Source of the DNA: Okeania sp. SIO3I5
GTDB lineage: Bacteria > Cyanobacteriota > Cyanobacteriia > Cyanobacteriales > Microcoleaceae
Length of the DNA: 55,189 nt
Assembly: GCF_010672085.1 (NCBI RefSeq)
Contig: NZ_JAAHHT010000025.1
Span: 1-55,189 of the forward strand
Direction: 5' to 3'
Under the pieces are notes generated by a model. The model had not been told where the DNA came from, searched no databases, and saw nothing but the letters and a program-made list of their open reading frames with translations. Below are positions 14,580-20,799 of the stretch, in pieces; the first letter of the stretch is position 1, and each line of letters opens with the position of its first letter. The position numbers and the translations under genes are program-made.

Positions 14580-14765
14580 TGGATCGACAGTTATCAAACT
14601 GGATTGGGTCGTGCAACCCCACTTTCACTTTGATCCGGGAAACTTTTTTGGAGCGTTGCTCTAATCCCCTACTTCCCCTCCTGGGATGAGTTAGGGGTGG
14701 GTTCCCTATTCCCTGTTCCCTGTTCCCTGTTCCCTGTTCCCTGTTCCCTGTTCCCTGTTCCCTCT
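14580..14765. repeat. Family D repeat (inverted) and (TTCCCTG)n heptamers
   Basis: 14583-14667 is an inverted copy of the CTCCAAAAAC..GGGTTGC..CGACCCAAT repeat. 14703-14764 holds about eight TTCCCTG heptamers ending 14 bases before the protease stop codon. A GGGGCGGTTTC..GCGAATCGCCC inverted repeat lies at 14438-14484. No gene is seen in 14334-14778. Confidence 0.7.
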
Positions 14766-14778
14766 TTTCTGGAGAGAT

Positions 14779-15624
14779 TTACTGATGAAAAAACATAGTA
14801 ATTAAAGGTAAAAAATTCAACAATATCCAACTCCAAAACCAGTAATTATTTTGCTGCATAGAAAAATCTGGTTCTGCTAATAGGGCATCAATTCTTTCTG
14901 TCAAACGATTAGGGGGAGTCGTGCAACTAAATGCTGCATAAAAGTTATTTGCTTCAGTCAAGCGATCGCTCACCATTAACAATAAAGTCTCCGCCAATAA
15001 TAACCCATCCACTTGTTTTTTTGCCCACTGATCGGCACGAATTTCTCGCAGAGTCAAAAGTTCATGCCACAAAACTTCAGTATTTGGTAAAAAAGGAACT
15101 ATTTTTCCCAACCAACCTAACCAGAAAAACCAAAAAGTATCTCGATAATAATAGTGAGCTTGTTCGTGATTTAAAACTGCATAAAGTTGATCAGAATTTA
15201 ATCTTTCTAAAAGTCCTTTACTAACAACTAACTTAGAATGCCAAAAGCCTATTTGAGCAATAAATAAAGTGGAATTATCAAGTAAAAATACAGATTTACC
15301 TTTAATATTTATTTGAGGATAATCATTAACTTTTTGCACAGATTGCCAACCTTGATAGCCTAAAACTAAACCGAGGATGACTGTCCATCCGCAAAAACTC
15401 CAGGCCAATACATAACTAACCCATCCAGTTGAGAATCCTAGCATTTCTCCTTCAGGCCCCATACAAATCATTGCAATGGCCGTTGCGATTAAAAGTAGGG
15501 GCGGAGAAATAAATAATAGTAAACAACGCTGCCAACGGACTAACCAATTAGGAGAAATAAAAAAATCCACACATCTCAGACTATAAGCTAAACCTAGAGC
15601 CAAAAATATAATAATTAGGTGCAT
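14779..15624 (-). CDS. petP: BlaR1/M56-type membrane protease, PetP-like
   Basis: A 281-residue membrane protein: three or four N-terminal membrane segments, a soluble zinc-protease region with HEQAH at 153-157 and a LREIRADQWA helix supplying the third ligand, then a C-terminal membrane segment. M56 proteases sense a signal and cleave a BlaI-type repressor. In Synechocystis the PetP protease lowers PetR levels in a copper-dependent way and so controls the plastocyanin/cytochrome c6 switch. Position directly after the BlaI-like gene (ATG overlapping its stop by one base, TAATG) and next to petE makes the same role likely here. The name rests on context and family, not on experiment. Confidence 0.8.
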   Translation of the reverse strand: MHLIIIFLALGLAYSLRCVDFFISPNWLVRWQRCLLLFISPPLLLIATAIAMICMGPEGEMLGFSTGWVSYVLAWSFCGWTVILGLVLGYQGWQSVQKVNDYPQINIKGKSVFLLDNSTLFIAQIGFWHSKLVVSKGLLERLNSDQLYAVLNHEQAHYYYRDTFWFFWLGWLGKIVPFLPNTEVLWHELLTLREIRADQWAKKQVDGLLLAETLLLMVSDRLTEANNFYAAFSCTTPPNRLTERIDALLAEPDFSMQQNNYWFWSWILLNFLPLITMFFHQ

Positions 15625-16046
15625 TATTTTTGATCCTCCCTAGCTTTGCGTAAAGCTTTTAGCTTTTGGGCGATCGCCTCTATTTGCTCTATACTGGCAG
15701 AGTCTAAACTATCGGCAAAAGCGGCCACTACATCAGGATTTCCTACTTCCAAAAATTGATTTAGTTGTTGGTGCGCTCTTAAAATTTGGGCTTCTCGACG
15801 AGAAATTAAAGGTCGCCAGACAAAAGCACGACTACTTTCATCACAACCTAACCAACCTTTTTGAGTTAGGCGACGCAGCACTGTTGTTACTGAAGTATAA
15901 GCTAACTCTCGGTCAGGGTCAGCTAGAATAAGTTCATGTACCTGTTTGACTGTGGCACAACCCAAATCCCAAAGAATGTTTAAAATTTCTGCCTCCAGAG
16001 GGCCAAGGGACATTTGTTGTGGACGGTAATTTGGTAAACTACTCAT
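15624..16046 (-). CDS. petR: BlaI/CopY-family regulator, PetR-like
   Basis: A 140-residue protein with the winged helix-turn-helix LGPLEAEILNILWDLGCATVKQVHELI (about residues 14-40) and AYTSVTTVLRRLTQKGWL recognition helix and wing. The C-terminus is a dimerisation helix. In Synechocystis PetR represses petE and activates petJ and is degraded through PetP when copper is present. Here it is encoded with the protease and divergently from petE across a 142-bp spacer, so it probably controls petE, petJ and itself. Start ATG 16046; no strong ribosome-binding site is seen. A GCGATCGC octamer lies inside the gene near the 3' end. Confidence 0.82.
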   Translation of the reverse strand: MSSLPNYRPQQMSLGPLEAEILNILWDLGCATVKQVHELILADPDRELAYTSVTTVLRRLTQKGWLGCDESSRAFVWRPLISRREAQILRAHQQLNQFLEVGNPDVVAAFADSLDSASIEQIEAIAQKLKALRKAREDQK

Positions 16047-16111
16047 AATTTTTGATTTTTCGATTTTTGCTTGTCCTAGCTAAAAATTTCCTGTTCTTAT
16101 GGTAAATTATT

Positions 16112-16135
16112 TAAGTATGACATTCTGTCTTATTA
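16112..16135. promoter_or_regulatory. Candidate PetR operator overlapping the petE -35
   Basis: The core GACATTCTGTC (16119-16129) is a perfect GACA-N3-TGTC palindrome. Extended arms AAGTATGACA and TGTCTTATTA match at 7 of 10 positions. The same core occurs before petJ. Overlap with the -35 hexamer fits a repressor site. Confidence 0.6.
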
Positions 16136-16144
16136 GTGTATAAT
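16117..16144 (+). promoter_or_regulatory. petE promoter
   Basis: ATGACA (16117-16122, one off TTGACA) and TATAAT (16139-16144) are 16 bases apart. Transcription would start near 16151, leaving about 38 bases before the ATG with AGGAG at 16177-16181. Confidence 0.6.
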
Positions 16145-16188
16145 TACCTAATAGATACTAAATAATCTAAAAAAACAGGAGTTTAAAG

Positions 16189-16590
16189 ATGCGTTTCATA
16201 TCATCATTTTCCAAGTCTATAGCAATGCTGGCTTCCGTAGTAATGCTAGTTATTGGTAGTCTAGTATTCTCTAGTCCAGCAGAAGCAGCAAACTACGAAG
16301 TAACAATGGGTGCTGGTGGACTAGCATTTGGTCCTCAGAAAGTAACTGTTAAGCCTGGTGATACAGTTACATTTAAGAATGGTATGCTTGCACCTCATAA
16401 TGTATTGTTTGATCCTGCTAAATCACCTGATGCAAAACTGGCAAAATCACTTTCTCACAAACAAATGGCATTTCAAGCTGGAGAGAGCTTTGATGTAGAA
16501 ATTCCAGCAGATGCTAAGGCTGGTGATTATATGTTTTTCTGTGCTCCTCACCGTGGTGCAGGTATGGTTGGCCATCTAATTGTAGAATAA
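16189..16590 (+). CDS. petE: Plastocyanin
   Basis: A 133-residue precursor of the type 1 copper protein that carries electrons from cytochrome b6f to photosystem I in the thylakoid lumen. The signal peptide covers about residues 1-33 and is cut after AEA, leaving ANYEVTMGAGG. Copper ligands are H70 (APHNVLFD), C118, H121 and M126 (FFCAPHRGAGM). The ribosome-binding site AGGAG is seven bases before ATG 16189. Expression is probably held off by the PetR-like protein when copper is scarce, through the GACA-N3-TGTC site over the -35. Length and all ligands are normal, so it should be functional. Confidence 0.97.
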   Translation: MRFISSFSKSIAMLASVVMLVIGSLVFSSPAEAANYEVTMGAGGLAFGPQKVTVKPGDTVTFKNGMLAPHNVLFDPAKSPDAKLAKSLSHKQMAFQAGESFDVEIPADAKAGDYMFFCAPHRGAGMVGHLIVE

Positions 16591-16724
16591 TAGCAAAACT
16601 TAACTAATACATCACAAGCTTAAACCAGCTAGGTTGATATTAGTTCATTGCCATTAGCCATGACGAAAATATCTTTGTCTTAGCCTAATCACAAATAGTT
16701 ATTTATTTGGAAAAAAACTCTAGG

Positions 16725-16742
16725 GACGTACCATGGTACGTC
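16725..16742. repeat. Perfect 18-bp palindrome GACGTACCATGGTACGTC
   Basis: The palindrome is flanked by AG..CT pairs that extend the stem. It matches a palindrome dispersed in many cyanobacterial genomes. It lies 135 bases after petE, so it may also act as a hairpin in the petE transcript, but it lacks a T-tract. Confidence 0.6.
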
Positions 16743-16757
16743 TCTACAATGCATTAA

Positions 16758-17022
16758 CTTTCCTGGCGGGAAGTCCCGCGCTCTCCATCCCCCCTAACCC
16801 CCCTTTCCAAGGGGGGAGGGGGAGCGTCGGGATGAAAGCCAGGGCCAGGATTCGGATACCTTCATAAGCTAAACGTTCATATCCCCTTGACACAAGCTAG
16901 GAGCATTTTGTTATTATCAATGTCAACACAGGGGGAGGACATCACCTCTGTCATGCGCAGCGGTCAGGGTTTCCCAGACTGAATAATCCCTATAATTCCC
17001 GTAAGGGCAACGTCGGGAGTAT
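16758..17022 (+). mobile_element. 265-bp IS200/IS605-like non-autonomous element, copy 1
   Basis: It is nearly identical to 20996-21259. The left end has a subterminal palindrome GCGGGAAGTCCCGC. The right end has CCCGTAAGGGCAACGTCGGGAG, resembling IS200/IS605 ends. No transposase or TnpB frame is present. The middle carries CCCCTAACCCCCCTTTCCAA and a conserved stretch through CAGCGGTCAGGG. Confidence 0.5.
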
Positions 17023-17366
17023 GTCAAGAAAAAGCAGATATAGCAATCCTAAATAGGTTGTAAGATTTGCTCGTAGGGGTTTGACCTCCAAACCCAAGTG
17101 CCAAGGGTTTTGGTCTACAAAACCCTACAGTTTTTTCTCACAAATGATTTCTTATGGCTATATAATTTTGGGAGATATTTTATAGTGTAAGATAAATTGT
17201 CAAATCAATTCAAAATTATTAATTCAAAATTATTAATTCGCTAATTATAACCTCTGCCTAAAGTCAGAGGCTTGAAATAAGGAAAATATTTTTGATTTTT
17301 TCACTCTTTGAAGAACGAGGCTAGAATACTTAATTAAACAATTATTGAAATTCACTTAGAACCAAA

Positions 17367-17405
17367 ATTTTTGAATTTTGAATTTTGAATTTTGAATTTT
17401 GAATT
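17367..17405. repeat. (AATTTTG)n heptamer repeat
   Basis: About five units of AATTTTG. The rest of 17023-17600 shows a TAGGGGTTT..AAACCCTAC inverted repeat (17075-17130) and a CCTCTGCC..GGCAGAGG-like hairpin near 17250-17275, and no gene. Confidence 0.8.
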
Positions 17406-17601
17406 GAAAAAATGGTCAAACCTTTAACTAATTAAGGTTGAAATTGATTACCGTTAGATATTCCTCTCTCTAAAAGTTGAGTATTTTAGGGAGAGGATAA
17501 TTTTTTTAATAAGTAACTTTAAAATCTTGTAAAATCTTAGTACAAATAAAAAATGTAGCATTAAAAACTCTTTGATAATCATTAATTTAATTTTTATGTT
17601 T

Positions 17602-17612
17602 GACAGGCTGTC
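17602..17612. promoter_or_regulatory. Candidate PetR site upstream of petJ
   Basis: GACAGGCTGTC is the same GACA-N3-TGTC palindrome as at petE, again preceded by T. It lies 84 bases before the petJ start and just upstream of TTGACG (17615-17620), a possible -35, with AGAATA (17639-17644) as a weak -10. That position suits an activator. Confidence 0.55.
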
Positions 17613-17695
17613 GTTTGACGTAGTGCTTGACTTAATTCAGAATAGGAAGCGCAAGTTTAATCATCATCAGTATTCGCATTGAGAGAGAAGAACAA

Positions 17696-18049
17696 ATGAA
17701 AAAATTACTATCAATTGTGCTATTGGCCATAATGTTTGTTGTTGTTGCGGTACAACCTCCAGCTTTAGCTGCTGATACAGCTAATGGAGCAAAGATATTC
17801 ACAGGTAATTGTGCAGCTTGCCATGCGGGAGGCAAGAATACAATTATGCCTATGAAAACTCTGAAAAAGGAAGCCTTAACAAAATACCTTAAGGATTTTG
17901 AAGCAAAAGGTGTAGAGGCAATTGTTTATCAAGTAACAAATGGTAAGGCATCTATGCCAGCTTTTAAAAGACTTGGAGACACTGCCATTGCTGATGTTTC
18001 AGCTTATGTTTTAGAGCAAGCTGAAGCAGACTGGAAAAAGAAAAAGTAA
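17696..18049 (+). CDS. petJ: Cytochrome c6
   Basis: A 117-residue precursor of the haem protein that replaces plastocyanin between cytochrome b6f and photosystem I when copper is low; thylakoid lumen. The signal peptide (about 1-25, ending ALA) precedes [10 protein letters not shown]. The haem site is CAACH (C39, C42, H43) and the distal ligand is M87 in ASMPAF. The C-terminus has the [10 protein letters not shown] helix expected of the family. AGAGAAG lies eight bases before ATG 17696. It probably belongs to the PetR regulon through the palindrome at 17602. Confidence 0.96.
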
Positions 18050-18229
18050 TATAAAACTAGGAAAAGATAGAATAGAAAAGTTTTCTACTTTACAAATGAA
18101 AGTTTTCTGTTCTTGATAATATATTCCTTGATAGTTGGGGTGAATTTTAGAGCTAGGGAAAATATCAAATCTATAGCTCTATGTATTCGCCCCAATATTA
18201 GTATTGGAAGTAAATACATACGGTGACAA

Positions 18230-19159
18230 ATGAATAGCTTTTATCGATTTCTATTCAGCATTGGTATAGTTGTTACAGTCCTATTTTTGTCATTCTCTCC
18301 ACCGATGAAAATTGCAACTGCTAACCCAGATATAGGCAATGCTAAAAAATTCTTCACTGAAGGTATAGCTAATACTAAAAACAAAAACTATGAGCAAGCA
18401 GTTGACAATTTTAGCAAAGCAATAGAACTTAATACTAACTTTGCCAGTGCTTATAGTAATAGATGTTTAGTTTATCTTCAATGGGGAAAATATGAGCAAG
18501 CGATCGCTGACTGTCATCAAGCAATAAAACTCAACCCAGAAAATTTAGAAGCAAATCTCAATCTAGGTTTAGCTTACTACGAAATCGGTAATTACCAACA
18601 GGCAGTCACAGAATATACTCAAGTGCTTAACCAAAGTTATAATGATTTTCGTGCCTTATATAACCGAGGATTAGCTAATTTTGAATTGAATAATTATCAA
18701 GAAGCAATAGCAGACTATAACTTAATTTTAGCCAATACTCAACAAGATGCTAATTTTAATCAAGCAGATATTTATAATGAAAGGGGTTTAGCATATTTAA
18801 TGTCAAAAAATATGCACAAAGCAATGGCAGATTTTAGTTATGCTATTTATATAGATTCTGGTAACTCTAGAGCTTATTACAACAGAGGTTGTGTTTGTAG
18901 CAAGATGGGAAATATTGAAGGAGCAATGGCAGACTTTAGCAAAACTCTAAAACTTAATCCCCATGAAGCTCAAGCATATTTAAACCGAGGTTTATTGCGT
19001 CAAGAGTCTGGACTTTATCAAGCAGCAATGCAAGATTTACAAGCTGCTGCCAAGTGTTTTGGCGATCGAGATAATATGGCAGCTTATCATCACACTCAAG
19101 CGTTGATTGATGGATTACAAAAATGGCTGTTATTATCTAATCAAACTGCTATTGGTTAA
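18230..19159 (+). CDS. Exported TPR-repeat protein
   Basis: A 309-residue protein with an N-terminal signal peptide or anchor (about 1-31, ending ATA-NP) and about seven tetratricopeptide repeats, for example NYEQAVDNFSKAIELNTNF, KYEQAIADCHQAIKLNPEN, NYQEAIADYNLIL and NIEGAMADFSKTLKLNPHE. TPR domains bind other proteins, so this is likely a lumenal or periplasmic scaffold or assembly factor. Position 180 bases after petJ on the same strand allows co-transcription, but no GACA-N3-TGTC palindrome lies before it. A partner cannot be named. The spacer before it has only weak AT-rich promoter-like sequence. Confidence 0.8.
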   Translation: MNSFYRFLFSIGIVVTVLFLSFSPPMKIATANPDIGNAKKFFTEGIANTKNKNYEQAVDNFSKAIELNTNFASAYSNRCLVYLQWGKYEQAIADCHQAIKLNPENLEANLNLGLAYYEIGNYQQAVTEYTQVLNQSYNDFRALYNRGLANFELNNYQEAIADYNLILANTQQDANFNQADIYNERGLAYLMSKNMHKAMADFSYAIYIDSGNSRAYYNRGCVCSKMGNIEGAMADFSKTLKLNPHEAQAYLNRGLLRQESGLYQAAMQDLQAAAKCFGDRDNMAAYHHTQALIDGLQKWLLLSNQTAIG

Positions 19160-19819: not shown

Positions 19820-20368
19820 CTAAGCAGATACTAAGACACGACTTTCTTCGCCTACAAAAATGGGGCGTAGCGTTTCCAACCACTCTGTAATTCTCTCTTC
19901 AGTTAGATCGCTTTGATTAATCTCATCAAGTGGTAATCCTACAAATTTACCATTACGTACGGCAGGAGAATGCTCAAAAGTGTAACCATCAGTAGGAAAC
20001 TCTCCAACTACAGTTGCACCAAGCTTCTCGAATTGGTCGCACATAAGTTGCAATGCGCCAGCAAAGTGCTTTCCATGATTAACTTGATCTGCTGCACCAA
20101 ACAAAGCAATAGTTTTTCCTGTAAAATCAGGCTTTTCGATATCCATGTCAAAAAGTGGTTCGCGCCAGGCATTCTGCACTTCCCCAGCTCCCCAAGTTGA
20201 ACAACCCAATAATAAATAATCGTACTCAAGAAGTTGATTAAAGTCGTCGTAATCTTCTTCCATATCTATGATATCACAAAGTTCTTCGCCTAATTTTTCG
20301 TGGATTGCTTCGGCGATTTCTGCTGTTACGCCGGATGTGCTGCCATAAAATATGCCAATTTTTGCCAT
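19820..20368 (-). CDS. isiB: Flavodoxin (long-chain), iron-stress electron carrier
   Basis: A 182-residue FMN protein that substitutes for ferredoxin as photosystem I acceptor under iron limitation. The phosphate loop is GIFYGSTSGVTAEIA (residues 4-18). The isoalloxazine-stacking loops are CSTWGAGEVQNAW and the FGAADQVNHGKHF region. The DGYTFEHSPAVRNGKFVGLPLD insertion marks the long-chain type. The C-terminal tail RPIFVGEESRVLVSA is about ten residues longer than usual. ATG 20368 is preferred because AGGAGT sits eight bases upstream; an in-frame GTG at 20377 lies inside that site. Iron regulation by Fur is expected for the family, but I cannot point to a convincing Fur box. Confidence 0.95.
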   Translation of the reverse strand: MAKIGIFYGSTSGVTAEIAEAIHEKLGEELCDIIDMEEDYDDFNQLLEYDYLLLGCSTWGAGEVQNAWREPLFDMDIEKPDFTGKTIALFGAADQVNHGKHFAGALQLMCDQFEKLGATVVGEFPTDGYTFEHSPAVRNGKFVGLPLDEINQSDLTEERITEWLETLRPIFVGEESRVLVSA

Positions 20369-20799
20369 TATCAACACTCCTGATGAGTTATACGTCTAAA
20401 TATAAAGTTGATTGAATCTACTGGGGATTGCCAATCACAGTAGTTTGACCAAGATGTTTGAGGGTATCTAGGTGGTTTCTACAAGTTAATTTGAACAAGT
20501 TAGTCGATTTTATCCCCAAGCTAAATCAAATAACAAAGGCTAATAGAGACAAATAGTTCAGATAGCCTTGGATATAGACATAGCTTTTTGTCTGAATCCT
20601 ATCTATTTTTGAATATATAGGCTAAATTAATTGAAATCTGTATCAATTGTAGTTGATAATTTTTTGAATTTAGTTTATAATCACAAATAATTCTACTACA
20701 CATTTTTTAGTCTTAAAGATTATATATTAGTTTTTACATAAGCTCTAACTAATTAATAAAGTTTTCAATAAATTTAGTTTGGATTGAAAAAAAGCATTT

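Follow-up and report, generated by a model that had tools for sequence, protein, structure and literature searches.

The stretch of Okeania sp. SIO3I5 DNA that was analysed (the window, 55,189 bases) carries a plastocyanin gene, petE, and a cytochrome c6 gene, petJ, together with the genes of a BlaI/CopY-family regulator, petR, and of a BlaR1-like membrane metalloprotease, petP (Table 1). PetR matches the profile of the BlaI/CopY/MecI regulators (Penicillinase_R), and the closest named relative found is that of Okeania sp. SIO2F4 (92%). The petP and petR reading frames overlap by one base, and a petP relative adjoins petR at other loci too. HExxH is directly visible in the translation of PetP, which matches the Pfam profile Peptidase_M48 (1.6e-6) and gave no match to M56 among the Pfam profiles. 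With petR and petP adjacent and petE and petJ in the same genome, the arrangement is that of the PetR/PetP system. The TPR-repeat gene downstream is possibly co-transcribed with petJ; TPR-like genes, judged by eye, come after petJ at two other loci (L016 and L273), and at L010 a similar gene has its own copy of the petJ element with one mismatch. A flavodoxin gene (19820-20377, minus strand; TIGR01752, 184 bits, above the cut-off) lies 1.8 kb from petJ, and three swap-type electron carriers therefore cluster in the window. Head-to-tail TTCCCTG repeats occupy approximately 14702-14763, downstream of petP.

Table 1. Features of the petE/petJ locus, in positions of the window
Feature	Positions	Strand	Basis or remark
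petP, BlaR1-like membrane metalloprotease	14779..15624	-	ORF; HEQAH motif
petR, BlaI/CopY-family regulator	15624..16046	-	Pfam PF03965 Penicillinase_R, 2.3e-29
petE -35-like hexamer ATGACA	16117..16122	+	pattern match
putative petE operator GACATTCTGTC	16119..16129	.	overlaps -35 and spacer
petE -10 TATAAT	16139..16144	+	begins 20 bp past the G of GACA
petE, plastocyanin	16189..16590	+	TIGR02656, 105 bits (cut-off 87.85)
petJ element TTTGACAGGCTGTCGTTTGAC	17599..17619	+	palindrome 17602-17612 plus third half TTTGAC 17614-17619
petJ -35-like hexamer TTGACG	17615..17620	+	pattern match
petJ -10-like hexamer CAGAAT	17638..17643	+	36 bp past the G of GACA
petJ, cytochrome c6	17696..18049	+	NF045930, 141 bits (cut-off 135)
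TPR-repeat secreted protein	18230..19159	+	Pfam TPR matches

A scan of the window for TGACA-N3-TGTC returned just two matches against 0.22 expected, one at petE (TGACATTCTGTC, 16118-16129) and one at petJ (TGACAGGCTGTC, 17601-17612); two or more matches were reached in 4 of 100 shuffles of the window. The initial annotation had placed one such palindrome over the petE -35 (ATGACA at 16117, TATAAT at 16139) and another just upstream of the petJ -35, and the scan confirms both placements: the petJ palindrome (GACAGGCTGTC, 17602-17612, GACA-N3-TGTC) stops 2 bases short of the -35 hexamer TTGACG, which begins at 17615. The putative petE operator also stands upstream of petR, 72 bp from its start. 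Of the 13 promoter-like pairs in 16000-18200 (mean of 7.6 in shuffles), the petE pair ATGACA/TATAAT is the best match (spacer 16, 11/12 matches) and the petJ pair TTGACG/CAGAAT is weaker (spacer 17, 9/12 matches); all -10 and -35 assignments, here and below, are pattern matches. The longer petJ element is the sole match in the window at up to three mismatches, and the genome match is exact.

In the whole assembly of the window (10.5 Mb) the bare palindrome is not enriched, with 41 copies as against 71 of a reversed control, which rules out a generic genome-wide word; the argument is therefore carried by position and context alone. The probability that the 142 bp between petR and petE and the 300 bp preceding petJ would each contain a palindrome by chance comes to ~6e-7, a figure that is arithmetic from the genome counts for regions picked after the fact, and the strong evidence is comparative rather than the count in a single window.

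The comparison covered 386 genomes of the phylum, of which 109 gave a PetR match at 1e-15, 156 a plastocyanin match at 1e-12 and 166 a cytochrome c6 match at 1e-20. From PetR-containing genomes 140 regions were fetched, hand-picked to give roughly one or two genomes for each genus, and 20 regions from genomes without PetR served as controls; one region (L200) went unused as neither petE nor petJ lay in it. To the fetched regions we added the window, L037 and eight named loci (7 petE and 7 petJ rows), giving a total of 200 promoters. Gene starts were set by rule, with an assumed start in 3 of the 200 rows (petE of L113, petJ of L005 and L016), rows with less than 60 bp upstream were left out of the per-genome counts, and main and second copies of petJ were labelled from the profile listing before the DNA was inspected.

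The best match to GACANNNTGTC within 300 bp upstream was exact at 41 of 70 petE promoters of PetR-containing genomes (13 with one, 9 with two and 7 with three mismatches) and at 45 of 71 main petJ promoters (17, 7 and 2, respectively). Second petJ copies (n = 38) gave 5 exact matches and 3, 15 and 15 with one, two and three mismatches, and genomes without PetR gave no exact match, either at petE (n = 9; 1, 5 and 3) or at petJ (n = 12; 0, 7 and 5). Counted per genome or named locus with PetR, the petE palindrome is present at up to one mismatch in 54 of 69 (41 exact) and absent within 300 bp of petE from the other 15, while the form GACAN3TGTCNTTTGAC precedes at least one fetched petJ in 64 of 71 (45 exact), leaving 7 without it at this threshold; both sites occur in 51 of the 59 for which both genes were fetched. 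In the genomes without PetR the corresponding numbers are 1 of 8 for petE, a small control, and 0 of 12 for petJ, and the single petE match, in L210 at -291 with one mismatch, was judged out of place. The genomes are related, and none of these counts represents independent events. The initial annotation had made its model depend on the palindrome being conserved upstream of petE and petJ in other cyanobacteria; it is kept in most of the fetched genomes with PetR, and almost all controls are without it. That the likeness of the petE and petJ sites is accidental can draw on the unenriched copies scattered through the genome, but with the palindrome conserved at both promoters and coupled to PetR (see below) we regard this as having practically no chance of being right.

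The spacer of the palindrome is strict: 3 alone is used, and spacers of 0-2 and 4-7 between GACA and TGTC are found in 0 to 2 of 70 or 71 promoters. When all words of the form 4+gap+4 were enumerated, taking one promoter per genus for genomes with handles and the named loci singly, GACA-N3-TGTC tied for first place at petE (35/60) with its own overlapping variant and was the top word common to petE and petJ (37/58 at petJ). Of the 41 exact petE sites, 33 fall between -60 and -100 and 8 outside this range, two of the latter beyond -140. At three loci (L090, L092 and L093) a divergent petE and petJ have one palindrome in common, which is the model of the initial annotation in a single site. In G087 and G300 the site-bearing petJ is the copy labelled second, and the petJ of L002 (Hydrocoleum) has two upstream palindromes, at -94 and -265. 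G070 (L211, L285), where no PetR match was found at 1e-15, has a divergent petE/petJ and degenerate sites with two to three mismatches at petJ and MbnP; it may hold a diverged PetR.

At the level of whole genomes, the 21-mer TTTGACANNNTGTCNTTTGAC is present at up to one mismatch in 100 of the 109 genomes with PetR as compared with 8 of the 277 without it (Fisher 3e-71, ignoring relatedness), and its reversed control matches in 20 of 386. The 8 genomes that have the 21-mer without PetR are all outside the class of the window, and the nine that have PetR without the 21-mer are G002, G062, G131, G135, G177, G185, G253, G332 and G374. Within genus g2, the genomes with PetR (G039, G203 and G336) hold 4, 4 and 2 elements and those without it (G099, G195 and G354) hold none; including these three, the element is found in 0 of 9 genomes without PetR from the order of the window. 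Four genomes with PetR that lack a petE match (G039, G129, G197 and G296) have a fetched petJ without the site, one petJ having been fetched from each and the second petJ of G039 left out, and carry the element elsewhere in the genome. The palindrome could in principle be the site of another regulator that merely co-occurs with PetR. The tracking of PetR by the element within genus g2, its absence from the order's genomes without PetR, and the agreement of its copies in a Synechocystis-like genome with the targets published for PetR all speak against this, and we consider it very unlikely.

The primary study of the PetR/PetP copper switch, in Synechocystis PCC 6803, is reportedly that of Garcia-Canas et al. 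2021. In Synechocystis petE is repressed and petJ activated by PetR, and the protease PetP acts on PetR when copper is present (PMC7896320), an account with which the accessible portions of PMC13421787, PMC12382314 and PMC12292863 agree. According to the same four sources, the last three as far as their accessible text goes, the promoters of both genes are bound by PetR, whose degradation in the presence of copper proceeds via PetP; the mechanism by which its binding has opposite outcomes is called unknown (PMC7896320).

The Synechocystis-like genome, G076, encodes a PetR relative with 59% identity over query residues 1-140. Its plastocyanin aligns closely to the PDB chains 1m9w and 1j5c and also matches 1pcs, all of which we take to be from Synechocystis 6803; G014 was set aside as a candidate for Synechocystis, the best match in its plastocyanin search being 1bxu. 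The whole G076 genome holds two elements only at up to two mismatches. One precedes petJ, and the other precedes the genes of a 126-aa GLTT-repeat protein and a 138-aa protein, a two-gene unit with the gene for the N-terminal portion of DNA polymerase III alpha (DnaE-N) behind it. We assume that slr0603 is dnaE-N and hence that the pair is presumably slr0601-slr0602, although a literature search for the identity of slr0603 with dnaE-N found nothing. The petE of G076 has the palindrome with one mismatch. This set of sites fits the published PetR regulon, which comprises the genes of four proteins (PMC7896320; also PMC12382314, in its accessible portion).

The presence of the palindrome, its conservation and spacing, its coupling to PetR and its gene neighbours can be read directly from the genomes, and we infer that PetR binds this exact GACA-N3-TGTC directly. 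We propose, with a probability of roughly 0.85, that it is the PetR operator, repressing petE from within the core promoter and activating petJ from upstream.

The petJ element has the form (AAG)TTTGACA-N3-TGTC-N-TTTGAC, with the last half overlapping the -35. In a reduced set of promoters this TTTGAC stands at +12 to +17 in 47 of 50 petJ and 0 of 45 petE promoters, and over all aligned promoters it occupies this fixed place in 59 of 62 and 0 of 52, respectively. Such near invariance at petJ, with absence from the same place at petE, would also be expected if the sign of regulation were set by the third half-site, by way of an additional PetR dimer or a change in the PetR-DNA complex, and not mainly by distance to the -35/-10. 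Three genomes with petE and no petJ match at 1e-20 (G147, G183 and G268) point the same way, as the full 21-mer persists beside petE; it faces away from that gene (in G147 at L310:501) and is perhaps the relic of a lost divergent petJ. These three belong to one genus, however, and the loss may be recent; at L090, L092 and L093, moreover, the intergenic region with the shared site contains the third half, facing petJ. The TTGAC also occupies the place expected of a -35, often with a -10-like hexamer at the right spacing, and the conservation is therefore explained without a second contact. We thus regard a sign set by the third half-site as possible but rather doubtful, and retain the position of the operator as the preferred basis of the opposite responses.

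Counted from the G of GACA, the -10-like hexamer of petJ is most frequent at 36 and 37 bases (18 of 50 promoters each, against a 95% level of 7 in shuffles). In the full set it is present at +36/37 in 44 of 62 promoters and absent from the rest, and only 3 of these 44 hexamers begin with the T of TATAAT. Across the compared promoters the palindrome covers the -35 and spacer at petE and abuts the -35 from upstream at petJ, the opposite promoter positions that had been claimed from the window. The -10-like hexamer of petE starts at +20 in the window and in about 4 of 6 of its group, at +32/33 in family f6 (about 25 of 26), and at scattered offsets in the other 20 promoters (mode +22, about 4.5 of 20). 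On these pattern matches, the petE offsets +22 and +32/33 would be about one helical turn apart and the petJ offset +36/37 about 0.4 turn off the petE +32/33. As the petE offsets are scattered outside the two groups, a helical-phase rule is weak; a strict one was dropped, and phase stays a suggestion only.

In the mechanism that we propose, GACA-N3-TGTC would be bound by a PetR dimer, and PetR would build up at low copper. The petE operator covers the -35 and spacer inside the core promoter, and bound PetR would therefore shut out RNA polymerase. The petJ operator is placed directly upstream of a near-invariant -35 (TGTC-N-T-TTGAC), with its centre ~44 bp before the probable start; since it abuts the -35, bound PetR would contact the polymerase and could so offset the poor -10, in a class-II-type activation. 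With copper present, PetP would degrade PetR and both effects would reverse. The simplest reading combines core-promoter repression at petE with class-II-type activation at petJ, and the idea of the initial annotation, that one regulator site stands in a repressor position at petE and in an activator position at petJ, gains support from conservation and position in the compared sequences. Beyond that idea, the present analysis brings in the third half-site of petJ (TTTGAC), the PetR/PetP system known from the literature and a wider regulon.

Most BlaI-family proteins are repressors, and the activation of petJ could accordingly be indirect, with PetR displacing or blocking another repressor there. 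The fixed spacing to the petJ -35 and the occurrence of the element before many unrelated genes argue that direct activation fits better, and each of the 12 most frequent gapped words at petJ is a piece of this element; we therefore judge an indirect route improbable and keep to direct activation by PetR.

The wider regulon was assessed from 76 distinct copies of the element (up to one mismatch, gene start within 420 bp downstream) in 30 automatically chosen loci, 40 hand-chosen regions and 9 further loci, with the neighbour reference set drawn from those same loci. The downstream gene is petJ for 25 copies, a DsbD_2/Ferric_reduct fusion for 12, a GLTT-repeat protein for 8, a TonB-dependent receptor for 6, MbnP for 3, a His-rich secreted protein for 3, DsrE for 2, and ExbB, MbnH, PepSY, TonB and an ABC ATPase for one each; for 12 copies it is outside the reference set. 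As a check on a sample drawn independently of the element, we took every MbnP match in the phylum at 1e-20 (20 in all). The element (up to one mismatch) lies upstream of MbnP at 11 of 12 loci with PetR, two of these 12 being partial matches below the family cut-off, as against 0 of 8 loci without PetR; at L284 one 145-aa reading frame lies between element and MbnP. At L263 MbnH (TIGR04039) comes after MbnP (TIGR04052) behind the element. The MbnP/MbnH pair is known from methanotrophs; the likeness is that some genomes with PetR carry MbnP (TIGR04052) behind the element, and the difference is that here the pair stands under a PetR-type element.

The only other copy of the element in the genome of the window, G000:C556:22508-22528 (L256:2509), is exact and lies 98 bp before an ABC transporter ATPase gene; the two next reading frames resemble pieces of one interrupted gene. 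At L275:1793-6545 petJ is followed by a TonB gene and a TonB-dependent receptor with its own element, and at L273:13345-17475 by a TPR-like gene and a TonB-dependent receptor with its own element. At L265:1032-5584 an exact element precedes a DsbD/ferric-reductase fusion, and ~770 bp later come the genes of cytochrome bd oxidase, a copper-free oxidase.

The family names suggest that the extra targets are copper-uptake genes, which the petJ-type element would switch on in many species. PetR is likely, in our view, to be a general copper-starvation activator of many cyanobacteria, beyond a two-gene electron-carrier switch: one 21-bp element with a third half-site at a fixed promoter distance would turn on cytochrome c6 and copper acquisition genes (TonB-dependent receptor, TonB, ExbB, MbnP/MbnH and DsbD/ferric-reductase type), and the palindrome inside the core promoter would repress plastocyanin.

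The copper switch itself is already known; an operator with a non-CopY spacer and many candidate targets extend it. The operator, the positional logic and the wider PetR regulon are undescribed in the literature searched, as far as its accessible text extends, and the primary study may hold the motif. Since both promoters, petE and petJ, serve as copper-controlled tools, the operator is also of practical value. A precise operator and two promoter positions address the gap in the mechanism of the known switch by making the opposite outcomes testable, and the additional targets suggest a route by which cyanobacteria take up copper. CtaA is described as the only well-characterised protein known as an exclusive copper importer across the plasma membrane (PMC12292863, accessible portion), and TonB and ExbB do not appear in the accessible main text of that paper.

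Among known systems, BlaI/MecI with BlaR1/MecR1 resembles PetR/PetP in joining a regulator and a membrane metalloprotease in one unit, and by sequence similarity PetR appears related to 2g9w (1.8e-6) and, weakly, to MecI (1okr, 8.5e-4). The signal of BlaI/MecI is beta-lactam, whereas the published signal of PetR is copper. BlaI/MecI also differs in its half-site, TACA as against GACA here (PMC7253601, accessible portion), and PetR is both activator and repressor. CopY/CopR shares with PetR the protein family, ACA/TGT half-sites and a link to copper, but its cop-box, RNYKACANNYGTMRNY, has a spacer of 2 (PMC7253601, accessible portion) in place of the PetR-type 3, and the CopY-type spacer of 2 was found at 0 of 70 petE and 0 of 71 petJ promoters. 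PetR scores 41.5 bits against the CopY_TcrY model TIGR02698, below the cut-off of 121.95, and its 140-aa sequence is without the C-terminal CxC that is the CopY metal site; in the published system copper acts via the protease, and PetR also activates. The PetR/PetP system of Synechocystis shares with the locus described here petR and petP beside petE and petJ, with opposite control of petE and petJ published; what sets the present case apart is a defined element, two promoter positions and many extra candidate targets elsewhere.
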